A stretch of 64,000 nucleotides of DNA from Nitrospirales bacterium (lineage in GTDB: Bacteria; Nitrospirota; Nitrospiria; Nitrospirales; UBA8639), in NCBI GenBank assembly GCA_029261295.1, contig JAJDBP010000017.1, positions 186,001 to 250,000 on the forward strand, given 5' to 3'. Position 1 is the first letter of the stretch; every line of letters starts with the position of its first letter. The notes below the pieces were generated by a model, which saw only the letters and a program-made list of their open reading frames with translations, had not been told where the DNA came from and made no database searches. Positions 6,999-13,428 of the stretch are shown here, one piece after another. Both the position numbers and the translations under genes were made by a program.

Positions 6999-7304
6999 TT
7001 ATTGCCGCGCTGATAAAAGTTCTTTCGCCGTCATGAAGTTTTTGGGTGGAGTAAAGCTATCTGTCACCTGTGCAAGGTCGTACTGCTTTTGTAGGTTCAG
7101 CCAAAACTCCGCACTGTTTCCAAAGAACAGGGACAGCCTCAAAGCGGTATCAGCCGTAATAGACCTGTCACCGCTGACAATGGCATTTATGCGGGTCTTA
7201 GGAATGTCCGTTGCCTTCGCAAGGGCATATTGTGAAATGGCCATCTCATCAAGAAATTCCTCTTGTAGGATAATGCCAGGGTGTTCTACTGGTATTTTTC
7301 TCAT
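6999..7304 (-). CDS. higA: HigA-type antitoxin (XRE HTH)
   Basis: 101 residues. Antitoxin and autoregulator of a type II toxin-antitoxin pair, neutralising the HigB nuclease encoded just upstream. It has an N-terminal HigA signature 'HPGIILQEEFLDEM', then a Cro/CI-type helix-turn-helix (about 24-60: ISQYALAKATDIPKTRINAI), and the family's 'FFGNSAEFWLNLQ' segment. The start follows a near-perfect AGGAGGAG site. Only 9 bases separate it from the higB stop, giving the toxin-first order typical of higBA. Confidence 0.92.
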   Translation of the reverse strand: MRKIPVEHPGIILQEEFLDEMAISQYALAKATDIPKTRINAIVSGDRSITADTALRLSLFFGNSAEFWLNLQKQYDLAQVTDSFTPPKNFMTAKELLSARQ

Positions 7305-7313
7305 ATTCTCCTC

Positions 7314-7604
7314 CTAGAGCTTGTCATGATAATCGCCAAATTCAACATTCAAAGCGTTCCCATTCTCCCAGATAAACCATATCCGGTATTGTTCTGTTAC
7401 CCGAATGGAATGATATTTACCCCACTTGCCTTTCATTTTTTCCAACCTGTTGCTGGGCGGCATCTTTAAATCCGTGATATTCCTGGCCGCGTCGATCATT
7501 CGTAATTTTCTGAAGACTTTGTTTTGCAAGGCCCCTGGAAGCTTCTTAACGTAGGTTCTATTCCAAATAGATCCCGTTTTCTTGTCCCCGAAGGTCTTAA
7601 TCAT
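7314..7604 (-). CDS. higB: HigB-type mRNA interferase toxin
   Basis: 96 residues of the RelE/HigB fold, expected to cleave mRNA on the ribosome. Family features are the opening 'MIKTFGDKKT', the middle 'LKMPPSNRLEKMKG' and the terminal 'YHSIRVTEQYRIWFIWENG' with basic and aromatic residues used in catalysis. Length is normal and no truncation is seen, so the pair is probably functional. It is first gene of the operon, transcribed from the promoter at 7610-7638. Confidence 0.9.
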   Translation of the reverse strand: MIKTFGDKKTGSIWNRTYVKKLPGALQNKVFRKLRMIDAARNITDLKMPPSNRLEKMKGKWGKYHSIRVTEQYRIWFIWENGNALNVEFGDYHDKL

Positions 7605-8026: not shown

Positions 8027-9793
8027 TTGAATTTCACATTTTCACACTTAATAAAAATTTTACGACTACTTCCCCTCTTTGGTTTACTCACAGGATGTAT
8101 ATCCTTAGGGCCAACATTTGAGAACAAAAAAGGAGAAGGGGCTGATTATGATGTTCTGAAAAATCATGTGATTATGTTTAATCTGGACGGACATCCAGTG
8201 GACCCTACAGGCAATCATGGGTGTCGAGAAGAAAAATCAAGGGATAAATCATATACGTATTGCGAAGGGAAATTTGACATTGTCTCAGATTACCCAGAAT
8301 TGGAAGAAGAGGATTTCAAGAAACATATTTTCAACATCTTAGAGAAAGCAAAAGAACATGCGGAAACCTATAAGATGGAAAAAATTCAACTACTCTTTTT
8401 TGTTCATGGGGGACTCAATACCCAAAAGGAGTCTCTGGAACGAGTCGTGGGTAAGGGACCAGATCCTAATCAAGAAAATAAAACATTACGTGACCTCATA
8501 ATGAAGGATAAAAAGTTTTATCCCATCTTTATTAATTGGCAGTCTTTTTTAACATCCAGTTATGGAGATCACCTCGTCAATATCCGACAGGGAGAAAAAC
8601 AGCCATGGAGTATAGGCTGGCCCACCGCTCCAATAGTATTGGCAGTCGATATCGGACGAAGCCTTCTTCGTGCCCCTCTGGTTTGGGGGAGTATGATTTC
8701 TAATGATGGGAAAACAGCACCCGATATCGACGAGATGTTTGGTCCTGAGAAAAACTTGCCAGATGAAGTGGTGCAGGACTTGTTGTGTCAGAATGCTTCT
8801 TCTCAGGAAGACTGTTTTCAGCAATTTAAGGCCAGCAAATCATCATCGTTTTCCAAATGTAGAGGGCAGAATGAAAACATAAGACAAGCTCTGAGAAGGG
8901 TAAATCCCAAGGCAAATCCTGGGGTAAAACTCATTATAGGTGTTGATGAACGTCGGTGCACTGAAATGGCTTGGAACTTCCTTAAATATCTCATAACTTT
9001 CCCTGCCAAAATTGTCACTAGTCCATTCTTTGATGCTTTCGGAAAAAGTGCGTGGGACAACATGCTTCGAAGCATTCAGCTACTTTTTCAGGTTGATGAA
9101 GAATTTCATTATGCCAAGCTATACCAGGAAGATATACTTCAACCCTCGAAGAGAACATCCAGCGGAGGACTTCACTTATTCCTCAATGAATTGCTTAATA
9201 AGATTCACGAAAATAAATCAGGCTCCAAGCAAAGCGTTAAAAAAGAATTAAAATGGGAAATCACTTGGGTGGGACATAGTGCCGGAACCCTCATTATTAA
9301 TGAGGCAATTCGGCGCTTTGGATTACCAAAAGAACGCGAAATAACATTGCCATTTAACAACATTGTATATATGGCAGCTGCAGCAACTCTTCGCGATATT
9401 GAAACCAGCGTGTACCCATATTTACAAAATAATTCCGATCATAGTTTTTTCCATTTAATGCTACATAAAAGGGCAGAAGAGGGCGAAATCCCTTGGGTTG
9501 ACCTCATTCCAAGAGGCTCGCTCTTGGTTTGGATCGATCAGTTCCTCTCCAATCCTCTTACACATAAGGAACGAACAGCAGGTAGGTATGAAAACTTTTT
9601 TCTAGACTTCCATTCCATCCAAAAAGAAATACAAAGTCAAATTTCTCTTCGAGTATTTAGTAACGGGGAAAAGGTCAAATTTAATAATCCTATGAAACAC
9701 GGTGAGTTTACCACTCGCTTTAGATTTTGGGACGAGGCCTGTTGGTTTCCTGAATTTAATCAAACTAATGAAGATCCATGTGTGTATCCGTAG
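8027..9793 (+). CDS. Large lipoprotein alpha/beta hydrolase, paralogue 1
   Basis: 588 residues. N-terminal lipoprotein signal with lipobox LTGC (Cys24), so it is secreted and lipid-anchored. An alpha/beta-hydrolase core is indicated by a VHGGL oxyanion-type loop (126-130) and a GHSAG nucleophile elbow (Ser418); a C-terminal HGEF (558-561), also present in the paralogue, may hold the catalytic His. Conserved with the protein at 11830 are NHVIMFN, VDPTGN, LTSSY-DHL, SAW-NM, RGSLLVW and RTAGR. The long insertion between the loop and the Ser is unusual. Substrate is unknown; ester, lipid or polymer hydrolysis is inferred. The start is TTG with AAGGAG 7 bases upstream. Confidence 0.75.
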   Translation: MNFTFSHLIKILRLLPLFGLLTGCISLGPTFENKKGEGADYDVLKNHVIMFNLDGHPVDPTGNHGCREEKSRDKSYTYCEGKFDIVSDYPELEEEDFKKHIFNILEKAKEHAETYKMEKIQLLFFVHGGLNTQKESLERVVGKGPDPNQENKTLRDLIMKDKKFYPIFINWQSFLTSSYGDHLVNIRQGEKQPWSIGWPTAPIVLAVDIGRSLLRAPLVWGSMISNDGKTAPDIDEMFGPEKNLPDEVVQDLLCQNASSQEDCFQQFKASKSSSFSKCRGQNENIRQALRRVNPKANPGVKLIIGVDERRCTEMAWNFLKYLITFPAKIVTSPFFDAFGKSAWDNMLRSIQLLFQVDEEFHYAKLYQEDILQPSKRTSSGGLHLFLNELLNKIHENKSGSKQSVKKELKWEITWVGHSAGTLIINEAIRRFGLPKEREITLPFNNIVYMAAAATLRDIETSVYPYLQNNSDHSFFHLMLHKRAEEGEIPWVDLIPRGSLLVWIDQFLSNPLTHKERTAGRYENFFLDFHSIQKEIQSQISLRVFSNGEKVKFNNPMKHGEFTTRFRFWDEACWFPEFNQTNEDPCVYP

Positions 9794-9986
9794 AGCCTTT
9801 GCATTCAAAAATTTGATGGAGTGAAAAGAAAAAACCAAAACCAAGAATACGACGAGGCTTCGTTAATGAAATTTTCAGAAAGTGGAATGTTAAAAAAGTT
9901 TCAGTTAGTTCTTTGAAGCTTATAGTTTTGGTCAGAAAGAACACACATAACTTGTTTCTCAAGAAAATTTCAATAAAAGAATCAAA

Positions 9987-10946
9987 ATGCAGAATTTTCA
10001 ATCATTAGTAATCCAATGTTTCTCTACGTTCTTTCTCTTAGCAGTATCTCTAGGGTGTTCTCAGTTTCATAGTACACATGAGAGAGTCAATGGGATATAT
10101 GAGACAACTACAGAAGTTAGCCTTCCCGATAACTCTGTTGCCCACACTGTACTGATCTTCTCAAGGTCTAGAGAGCGGAGCTACCCTCCTATTCTCTTAT
10201 TACATGAGCTCCCAGGTTTAAATCAAAAAACAATTAATTATGCGATCTCATTAGCAGGAAACTTCACAGTGTATGTGCCTCTTCTTTTTGGGTCACGCAA
10301 GCAGGATTCAGTTCTCAATGGGATGTTGGCGTATGGATTCAATGGCGAATGGTGGAAGCGAGATAGTCTTAATGGAAGTCGAGAGATCATCAAATGGTTG
10401 CGACTTGTGACTCAGAATATTGCCGAGAAACATCACGGTCAAAAAATTGGTATTATTGGAATGTGTCTTACCGGATCCCTCCCTTTAGCCTTGCTCGATA
10501 ATGAAAATATCCATGCCGTGGTGACTGCTCAACCTTCTCTTCCACTTTGGGAGAGATCAGAAGATGAAGCAAATTCTCTTGATCTTTCTCGTAAAGAGTG
10601 GGAAACAGCAGTTTCTCGGGCCAAATCTGAGGGCGGCCCATTTGTTTATGGAGTAAGATTTGAGAAGGATAAAAGAGCTGATAGGAAAAAGCATCAACAC
10701 ATGAAGAAGGTCTTTAACTGCGGAAAGGGTAAAGCTTCGTATATTGACGGAGAAATTCGATATTCTGAATACAAAAAGTCAGGTATTCAGCTAGAGGCTC
10801 ATTCCACACTTATTAGAGAATGGAAAAGTATCAAAGGTCATCCTACTGAAATTCGCAGGAAAGACATTAGAAGATTTTTGGCTAATCCAAGAGATTTCGT
10901 TGCGCAAAATCCCCAAATGATAGAATGCCCTCAAGTCTCCCAATAA
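9987..10946 (+). CDS. Dienelactone-hydrolase-like lipoprotein
   Basis: 319 residues. A lipobox-like VSLGC (Cys24) after a hydrophobic segment suggests a lipid-anchored exported enzyme. The nucleophile elbow is GMCLTG with Cys160, as in dienelactone hydrolases, which use Cys-Asp-His rather than Ser. HELPGLN (73-79) fits the oxyanion loop and the 'EAHSTL' His (272) the catalytic base. The C-terminal region (280-319) is hydrophilic and longer than in typical cytoplasmic members. It lies between the two large hydrolase lipoproteins, same strand, about 190 bases after the first, so shared function is plausible but not proven. Confidence 0.7.
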   Translation: MQNFQSLVIQCFSTFFLLAVSLGCSQFHSTHERVNGIYETTTEVSLPDNSVAHTVLIFSRSRERSYPPILLLHELPGLNQKTINYAISLAGNFTVYVPLLFGSRKQDSVLNGMLAYGFNGEWWKRDSLNGSREIIKWLRLVTQNIAEKHHGQKIGIIGMCLTGSLPLALLDNENIHAVVTAQPSLPLWERSEDEANSLDLSRKEWETAVSRAKSEGGPFVYGVRFEKDKRADRKKHQHMKKVFNCGKGKASYIDGEIRYSEYKKSGIQLEAHSTLIREWKSIKGHPTEIRRKDIRRFLANPRDFVAQNPQMIECPQVSQ

Positions 10947-11829
10947 TGTTGACCCATAAAAATTTTAATGTCACTGGGGCTGGAGACCTCAAGTGGCCCT
11001 CTTGGGGAGCCAGCATGAAAATTAGGGTTAGACTCCACAAAATGACACACGACTTGTGTATTGTGTTAACTTCTCCATCCATAGCACACAATTAGAAAAT
11101 AACCCTTAGAGTTTCTTTTTTTTAGAAACATTTTTCTGTACTCCTATTGAAGCTAGAGGTGGTCCAGCTATCCGGCGTATATCAATCAGACCACAAGCCC
11201 GACAGGGTTACAGCGGGAATTCGTCTATGACCTGGTGGGCCATCGGCAGAAATATCAAGGGATCGACGATACGTAGAAGCTGGTCTCGACGATGAAATCA
11301 AGGCCTTTTATGATCGAGGCCGCACCGCCACCGTGATAGGCGACGAAGATTTTGTGACCTGGGTACGGGAGAAGGAATGGCAGAAGTTGGACGACAAAGG
11401 CTTCGTAGCACAGGTCCTTCCTGTCCGCTTGACCATGGATACCCTGGGCCCCTTAGTGACCGCATAAAACAAACTGGATGCTAGGCGATTAACGCAGGTG
11501 GTGAAAGGGCCCAAGAGAGGGTTGCTTGCCCGCAAAGTGGCGATGTATCTCTGTCAACAACTCGGGGGACATCGCTTGACGGACATTATGCACATCTTTG
11601 GTTTGTCGTATGTAGGCTCCGTCAGTTTTATTACGATCCAGATGCGGAAACGTATCAACGAGCAGCCCCACTTGCCAAGACGATACAGCGAATTACTCAT
11701 TACGTCATAAAGCAAGCAACTTGATCTCTTATTTTGCTCCGCAAGTATGCATGGATGATTTAATCGTCAACAACAGATTTGACCCGTATTCTGACCGGTA
11801 TTCGTTCCGTTTAAAGGAGAAAAGCAGAT
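10947..11829. other. Long non-coding stretch containing transposase debris
   Basis: Holds the decayed RAYT gene described separately, then a shared tail (AAAGCAAGCAACTTGA near 11707) and CAACAGATTTGAC at 11771-11783. AAAGGAG at 11813-11819 is the ribosome binding site of the next hydrolase gene. No other gene is visible. Confidence 0.6.
11160..11707 (+). pseudogene. Decayed REP-associated tyrosine transposase (RAYT)
   Basis: Three frames together match the C-terminal half of a RAYT. The first reads 'REFVYDLVGHRQKYQGIDD' then a stop. A shifted frame gives 'IGDEDFVTWVREKEW' and ends at a TAA near 11465. After that come 'GPKRGLLARKVAMYL' and 'HRLTDIMHIFGLSYVGSVS', which resemble the DnaA-like HTH found at the end of many RAYTs. 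The Y1 catalytic domain is missing. At least two in-frame stops and one shift show it is dead. It splits the hydrolase island. Confidence 0.65.
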
Positions 11830-13428
11830 ATGATCGCGAATGCACTGGTACGAATCATTAGTGAAGTTCAAAACCAAACTAGATCTAGCATAAGCATTGG
11901 AGGGCCCAACATATCAAAGACCATTTTCTTGTTGTTGTGCCTGAGTTCATTCTCGATTTCTGGCTGCATGAAGGGAATCGATGCACCAACAAGGGCAATG
12001 GATTTTGTTGGCAATCACGTCATTATGTTTAACGGGACTGGGCATGCGGTAGATCCCACTGGTAATACCGGTTGTACTTCAGAAGCTTACCCCTGTAATG
12101 GCCAATATACAAACTTTAAACGCTTTGCCGAGTTGTCAAAAGGTGAATTCAGAGATCAGGCTGATAAAATTATTTCCGCAATGAAAAGTTACACAGATGT
12201 GCAGTATAAAATAAATGGAAAACGAAAGGTATTACTGTTTATACACGGCGGTCTCAATAGCCACATTGATGGAATTAAACGAGCGACTAAATTTTCTGGA
12301 AAAATATTAGACAATTACAAGGGGTCCTTTCCAATTTTCTTAAATTGGGATTCTTCTTTGACGTCGAGTTATGTAGATCATCTTTTCTTTATTCGAAGAG
12401 ACCAAGATCAAGGAATAATAGGTGTGCCATTCGCACCATTTTACTTGGTCATGGACCTATTCCGTGGCTTAGCTCGTGCACCGGAATCCTGGTTTGAAAG
12501 CTTTGTTAGTGATTTTGAACAAGTTTATGGTTCAAAACAGCGGGAAATAACAAATAATTTCAGGGAAGCTTTTCAGAATAGAGATTCTAGGGCACTTAAA
12601 CCTAACAACCGTGCGTATTCTCAGGAGATCGCCATATCGACAGGCATAGATCGCATAACTTGGGCAGAGAGGTTAACTGCCTTTACGTCATATTTGATTA
12701 CTTTACCGACGAAACTAGTCACCAAGCCTTTTATCGACGGAATGGGAAGGAGTGCTTGGGAAAATATGGTTCGACGCACTCAGCTGCTTTTTTATACCCC
12801 AGACAATTTTGGCCTTAAAGCATCAAGGGAGTTTCTTAGTACTGGAGTAATGGACATGGAGGGCAAAGGAGCACTTTCAGATTTCTTGCGCCGATTTCAA
12901 AAAGAGGTAAATGATAGTCCGGGACAATGGGAAATCACACTGATAGGGCACAGCATGGGAACAATAATCATAAATCAATTACTCCGAAAATTCTCTTTAC
13001 CGTTCAAAAATATAGTTTACCTGGCCGCTGCATGCTCAGTTGGAGACTATCAAGATAGTGCTTTCTCTTTCATGAATAAGAATACCAAAACCCACATCTA
13101 CCATGTATTTCTACATCGTGAAGCAGAGCTCCGTGAGAAATATTCCTTAATTGGACAGTTAGATCCAACTATTCGTGGATCACTTTTGGTTTGGCTAGAC
13201 GATTTCTTAGCCAATGTTAATACACCTCTGGATAGAACAGCCGGTCGGGAAGATAATCTACTGCCGGCACTTTCTATGACTCCTGCCGGTTTGCGAGGCA
13301 GAATACACGCTAAGGCTTTTGGAGTTGGAGGGGACTCTAACAATCTCAGCCCACAAGGTCATGGTGACTTCGAAAATTTTCCCTTCTGGAAGCCGAGCTT
13401 TTGGGAACCTGAAAGGCCTTACCATTAG
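11830..13428 (+). CDS. Large lipoprotein alpha/beta hydrolase, paralogue 2
   Basis: 532 residues, homologous over its length to the protein at 8027. Signal segment about 29-45 with lipobox ISGC (Cys46); the 28 residues before it are unusually long, so an internal start is possible, though AAAGGAG precedes the ATG at 11830. Conserved elements are NHVIMFN and VDPTGN (62-79), HGGL (139-142), LTSSY, RAP, SAWENM, GHSMG with Ser375, RGSLLVW, RTAGR and HGDF (511-514). It lacks the cysteine-rich insertion seen at about 250-310 in paralogue 1. Probably an outer-membrane or periplasmic esterase/lipase; substrate unknown. Confidence 0.75.
   Translation: MIANALVRIISEVQNQTRSSISIGGPNISKTIFLLLCLSSFSISGCMKGIDAPTRAMDFVGNHVIMFNGTGHAVDPTGNTGCTSEAYPCNGQYTNFKRFAELSKGEFRDQADKIISAMKSYTDVQYKINGKRKVLLFIHGGLNSHIDGIKRATKFSGKILDNYKGSFPIFLNWDSSLTSSYVDHLFFIRRDQDQGIIGVPFAPFYLVMDLFRGLARAPESWFESFVSDFEQVYGSKQREITNNFREAFQNRDSRALKPNNRAYSQEIAISTGIDRITWAERLTAFTSYLITLPTKLVTKPFIDGMGRSAWENMVRRTQLLFYTPDNFGLKASREFLSTGVMDMEGKGALSDFLRRFQKEVNDSPGQWEITLIGHSMGTIIINQLLRKFSLPFKNIVYLAAACSVGDYQDSAFSFMNKNTKTHIYHVFLHREAELREKYSLIGQLDPTIRGSLLVWLDDFLANVNTPLDRTAGREDNLLPALSMTPAGLRGRIHAKAFGVGGDSNNLSPQGHGDFENFPFWKPSFWEPERPYH

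Follow-up and report, generated by a model that had tools for sequence, protein, structure and literature searches.

The three genes of the island

The window, which is the whole 64,000-nucleotide stretch of DNA that was analysed, lies on contig 9 of a 4.06 Mb Nitrospirota genome whose named relatives in the same order are Nitrospira and Nitrospirales MAGs. Three neighbouring hydrolase genes are found in it on the + strand, as a first-pass annotation had described. The first gene (8027..9793) encodes a large lipoprotein serine alpha/beta hydrolase of 588 aa, called copy 1 here, with a lipobox cysteine at residue 24 (FGLLTGC24), an HGGLNT motif, a GHSAG motif around Ser418, the candidate acids Glu484 and Asp504, and His558. 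The third gene (11830..13428) encodes copy 2, a protein of the same kind with 532 aa, which carries its lipobox cysteine at residue 46 (SISGC46), HGG at residues 139-141, GHSMG around Ser375, the candidate acids Glu433 and Asp457, and His511, along with a helical insertion at residues ~177-362. The reading frame of copy 1 starts with TTG and that of copy 2 with ATG, and each is preceded by a good, properly spaced Shine-Dalgarno sequence (TAAGGAG and AAAGGAG, respectively). Between the two lies the gene of a dienelactone-hydrolase-like (DLH-like) lipoprotein of 319 aa (9987..10946), with the lipobox VSLGC24 and the motifs HELPGL and GMCLTG.

The middle protein was said to use a cysteine nucleophile, and this reading stands. 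Cys160 (codon 10464..10466, + strand, within IGMCLTG), Asp228 and His272 are all invariant in 18 DLH-like relatives, as a Cys-His-Asp triad would be. The protein is DLH-like, yet it scores 19.8 bits against PF01738 (dienelactone hydrolase), which is under the cut-off of 21, and any dienelactone activity is putative. Three of the 18 relatives match PF01738 at E<=0.001. No PDB profile matched the protein at E<=0.01, and a structure model built from a 3-sequence alignment had a pLDDT of 44 and was unusable. The gene occurs commonly among the order's Nitrospira genomes but only rarely in the genus to which the window belongs, and full-length relatives were found only in Nitrospirales in a search that covered Nitrospirota. 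At 12 of the 14 other DLH-like loci another alpha/beta hydrolase (a DUF900, HGIGEQ-type or LCAT-like protein) lies within ~3.3 kb. Some Nitrospira islands (L117, L037, L120 and L124) hold many more lipoproteins whose family is not known, and L117 additionally holds PhoD-like and DUF900 proteins.

The island is lower in G+C than its surroundings (41.3% vs ~47.5% on either flank), and just 4 of 20 same-genus relatives have the large-hydrolase family; because of this lower G+C and patchy distribution, the island was probably acquired horizontally. A complete HigBA toxin-antitoxin pair (6999-7604, - strand), with an HTH_3 antitoxin and a toxin that matches PF05015 at 5.5e-20, lies immediately upstream. 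The gap between the second and third genes holds what looks by eye alone like a degraded transposase-like reading frame (11080..11740, + strand), which ends in a DnaA-like helix-turn-helix motif, also judged by eye. No clean empty site was found: G009, whose orthologue of the downstream gene is the best available at 91% identity, is otherwise without synteny. In the window, the island has no FadL, barrel or oxygenase gene next to it, and the genome has one FadL match, on another contig.

A family of large lipoprotein hydrolases

The two large proteins are 33% identical across 542 aligned positions, and because the E-value is 3e-85 this likeness is beyond chance; they are the divergent paralogues that the first-pass annotation took them for, and both contain the N-terminal block HVIMFN...VDPTGN that it had pointed out. 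Copy 1 pairs firmly in the tree with a 57%-identical protein from another genome (G011), and copy 2 is placed elsewhere. A recent tandem duplication of the two was rejected on these grounds, and since their tree positions differ, their nearness is one of co-location. The same contig carries a third paralogue at a distance of ~150 kb (C9:349285-350928), which is absent from the first-pass annotation. Upstream of the third paralogue are two lipoprotein genes on the - strand (L006 8097-11819; 393 aa and 809 aa), the larger of which encodes a coiled coil and a C-terminal surface Ig-like domain. The first-pass annotation had asked whether relatives come in pairs, and as a rule they do not: most genomes have one copy, the window has two clustered copies, and Nitrospira sp. 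RSF12 (G050) has three within 10 kb, which are local duplicates according to the tree.

Relatives of ~450-650 aa occur in Nitrospirota, Planctomycetota, Verrucomicrobiota, Proteobacteria, Bacteroidota and others. Within the phylum, a profile of 11 relatives finds members in 34 of 296 genomes, with weak or fragment matches counted. A scan of named genomes gave 46 loci, from Nitrospira, Nitrospinaceae, Planctomycetota, Verrucomicrobiota, Omnitrophota, Leptospiraceae, Nitrosomonas, Desulfobacterota, Gemmatimonadota and Hymenobacter, and from the Gammaproteobacteria Acinetobacter baylyi, Alcanivorax and Oleiphilus. Proteins of ~609-690 aa in many Nitrospirota (L034, L035, L104-L112) have an HGG/GHS core and match the family profile weakly; their N-terminus looks papain-type peptidase-like by eye.

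The sequences have the features of the alpha/beta-hydrolase superfamily: a GHSxG nucleophile elbow, an oxyanion HG motif and a C-terminal His. In a 37-member alignment numbered by copy 2, the nucleophile Ser375 (codon 12952..12954, + strand) is Ser in 36 of 37 and the catalytic-His candidate His511 (13360..13362, + strand) is His in all 37. HGG is kept in nearly all members and the His of the N-terminal block in 35. For the acid there are two candidates, position 433, which is Glu or Asp in 37, and Asp457, kept in 36. A lipobox cysteine is present in 36 of the 37 (Cys46 of copy 2, codon 11965..11967, + strand), and it can be read directly, together with an N-terminal signal peptide, in the window sequences, which marks these proteins as bacterial lipoproteins. 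In enterobacteria, Asp at position +2 after this cysteine is a retention signal, and its absence favours the outer membrane. None of 36 relatives has Asp there, and if the enterobacterial rule is assumed to apply to Nitrospirota, the large hydrolases are likely sorted to the outer membrane.

Searches of the curated libraries place the proteins in no named family. Copy 1 has no match in Pfam, copy 2 has abhydrolase matches only, all of them under the curated cut-offs, and the family is without a match in NCBIfam, PADLOC and PHROGs. Full-length matches to characterised lipase families, which would have spoken against a distinct family, were looked for and not found, and no named lipase family in Pfam or NCBIfam scored above its curated cut-off. 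No paper on the large-hydrolase family was found in the literature. The conserved motifs beyond the nucleophile elbow bear out the claim of a distinct family, and both the family and its lipid anchoring are well supported: it is a new family inside a known superfamily.

AlphaFold2 was used on the 37-member alignment to predict the structure of copy 2 (pLDDT 84.9, pTM 0.85). The predicted strands are 132-138, 166-173, 367-374 (followed by Ser375), 392-398, 422-428 and 492-497 (followed by His511). DSSP of the model gives the alpha/beta-hydrolase order, with the nucleophile after beta5 and His after beta8. For the catalytic acid the candidates are Glu433 and Asp457. A helical insertion of ~190 residues (177-362) sits between beta4 and beta5 and contains a hydrophobic stretch at 195-215 (family mean KD 0.72). 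In most known lipases the cap separates strands 6 and 7, which makes the site of this insertion unusual. No solved structure matched at E<=0.001 (the best PDB match had E=0.035, and global TM-scores were low), nor did any entry of a viral fold library. Because of this, the assignment of the predicted catalytic core to the alpha/beta-hydrolase fold is based on its motifs and on the order of its strands. The best of the weak solved-structure matches are monoacylglycerol and other lipases, and the weak sequence and fold matches in general are mostly lipases.

Gene company and proposed function

The neighbours of the large hydrolase were compared with genes farther off. Lipobox proteins make up 21 of 101 same-strand neighbours within 1.5 kb and 17 of 200 genes more than 4 kb away (p=0.003), and proteins with an OMP-like C-terminus make up 10 of 101 near genes and 3 of 200 far ones (p=0.001), both p-values being optimistic as the near and far loci are partly related. 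At five loci a related small barrel-like secreted protein directly adjoins the large hydrolase. Several neighbours have to do with lipids. A FadL/TodX gene (7e-34) lies 18 bp upstream of the homologue in G277, and in G329 a second FadL with a broken frame lies upstream. A Tle1-like lipoprotein (4e-61) is found 278 bp upstream in G188, a Tle1-like protein also lies near the homologue in Scalindua, a class-3 lipase (6e-26) overlaps it by 3 bp in Humisphaera, a patatin lies near it in Verrucomicrobiales, and a RoxA-like dihaem protein is next to it in G031. FadL and a Pfam-confirmed RoxA-like gene were never found at one locus. The neighbours are variable: among the 73 that were scanned, each lipid-related family turns up no more than one or two times, and repeat occurrences are limited to Tle1-like, FadL and patatin (two each) and Lon_C. 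The tally of the far control covers its top 25 families, and one Tle1-like gene of G188, 4.5 kb away, was drawn for the control and is outside the 73. In independent lineages the gene company speaks for substrates of the acyl-lipid kind, although the loci have some ancestry in common. The DLH-like gene is a recurrent companion as well, lying within 10 kb of an intact large hydrolase in 7 of the 10 Nitrospirota genomes that have both, far over the ~1% expected at random placement in ~4 Mb.

Altogether this suggests that the large pair are uncharacterised outer-membrane lipoprotein serine hydrolases, likely lipases or esterases, on a horizontally acquired island, a reading to which we give a probability of about 0.55. 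The most likely activity of the large hydrolases would be that of a lipase or esterase, with acyl lipids at the outer membrane as substrates. Fat-like molecules are the likely target because genes for fat-handling proteins are repeatedly found next to those of the family, across several phyla, and it is this gene company that suggests a lipid or ester substrate. The DLH-like lipoprotein would be a second hydrolase which may process a related or downstream ester, and its recurrence as a neighbour hints that it cooperates with the large hydrolases.

One rival reading, which we consider unlikely, is a role in conflict or defence, in which surface or periplasmic lipoprotein hydrolases on mobile islands would harm invading cells or phage, or block superinfection. 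It is kept in play mainly because the homologue of A. baylyi (L054:9794-11167) lies at the end of a prophage, just past tail-tip and tail-lysozyme genes (L054 282-11167); it is placed there like an accessory prophage gene. The patchy distribution, the low G+C and the adjoining HigBA pair of the window are consistent with such a role, as are the Tle1-like neighbours, one IMG/VR contig with a relative, and the PRTase-CE and ORC-CDC6-like genes, a conflict-type pair, that follow the Oleiphilus homologue (L058 11568-14437). However, neither PADLOC nor PHROGs has a match, and at many loci the neighbours are FadL or barrel genes instead of defence genes. A known defence system was rejected on the PADLOC result. 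Carriage by plasmids or phages was rejected as well, since no relatives were found among 50,697 phage or 72,556 plasmid records at the sensitivity of tblastn, leaving the one IMG/VR contig.

Envelope maintenance, in which the hydrolases would serve as lysophospholipases or deacylases, or remodel cell-wall esters, on the cell's own envelope and not on imported lipid, seems to us no likelier than conflict. A lipobox in nearly all members and the adjoining barrel-like partners would suit it, but presence in 34 of the 296 phylum genomes, even counting weak and fragment matches, is patchy and unlike housekeeping, and the FadL neighbours fit the transport of free fatty acids better.

The first-pass annotation had offered either a cell-surface hydrolytic set or a group of effectors; a surface or outer-membrane set is supported, and an injected or secreted effector group is not. 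In the Tle3/Tli3 pair (PMC9860674), the outer membrane lipoprotein is the immunity protein. Lipase effectors of a T6SS (Tle-like), with or without immunity lipoproteins, are very improbable here and were rejected: relatives in G188 and Scalindua have Tle1-like proteins as neighbours, and these are the sole T6SS family in the neighbour tally, but the sheath gene VipB has no match in the window's genome (the E. coli control matched), no VgrG or PAAR was recognised beside relatives, the family lacks a match to the Tle Pfam family PF09994, and, unlike in Tle3/Tli3, the hydrolase itself bears the lipobox signal.

The family spans several phyla and has a member in a cultured laboratory species, A. 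baylyi. Since none of the curated libraries searched has an entry for it, a single biochemical experiment would be enough to annotate an entire class of proteins. Lipolytic activity, if the proteins have it, would suggest surface lipid-processing islands in the order of the nitrite-oxidising Nitrospira, which is unexpected for chemolithoautotrophs. A wider and decidedly tentative picture is that of a cross-phylum lipase family with a helical cap at an odd site, residing in modular islands with barrel, FadL, RoxA-like and Cys-hydrolase proteins that would form a lipid-processing or lipid-signalling surface even in this order.

Comparison with known systems

PA2077 and PA2078 of P. aeruginosa are RoxA relatives, periplasmic fatty-acid dihaem oxygenases (PMC4496055). 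The large-hydrolase loci resemble a combination of such oxygenases with FadL transport in that some family members have FadL-type barrels as neighbours and one has a RoxA-like dihaem protein beside it, but these FadL and RoxA-like neighbours are at separate loci.

Tle1-like phospholipases (PF09994) are also alpha/beta hydrolases and are neighbours of the family in Scalindua and in G188, where the Tle1-like protein is itself a lipoprotein; the family differs in having no PF09994 match and, in the window, a genome with no T6SS sheath gene.

The middle protein shares with dienelactone hydrolase (PF01738) a GxCxxG cysteine nucleophile, the conserved Glu of HELPGL, and the invariant Asp and His, but it is a lipoprotein and stays below that family's cut-off (19.8 bits vs 21).

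Closest to the large proteins are DUF900 and the generic abhydrolases (PF05990, PF12146, PF00561), with which the GHSxG elbow region of the family aligns weakly and which 5 to 13 of the 37 members match at E<=0.001. Copy 2 is nevertheless under every curated cut-off and copy 1 is without a match, and the family is set apart by its lipid anchor, its N-terminal HVIM/VDPTGN block, its helical insertion of ~190 residues, and its GSLLVW[IL]D and HG[DE]F motifs.
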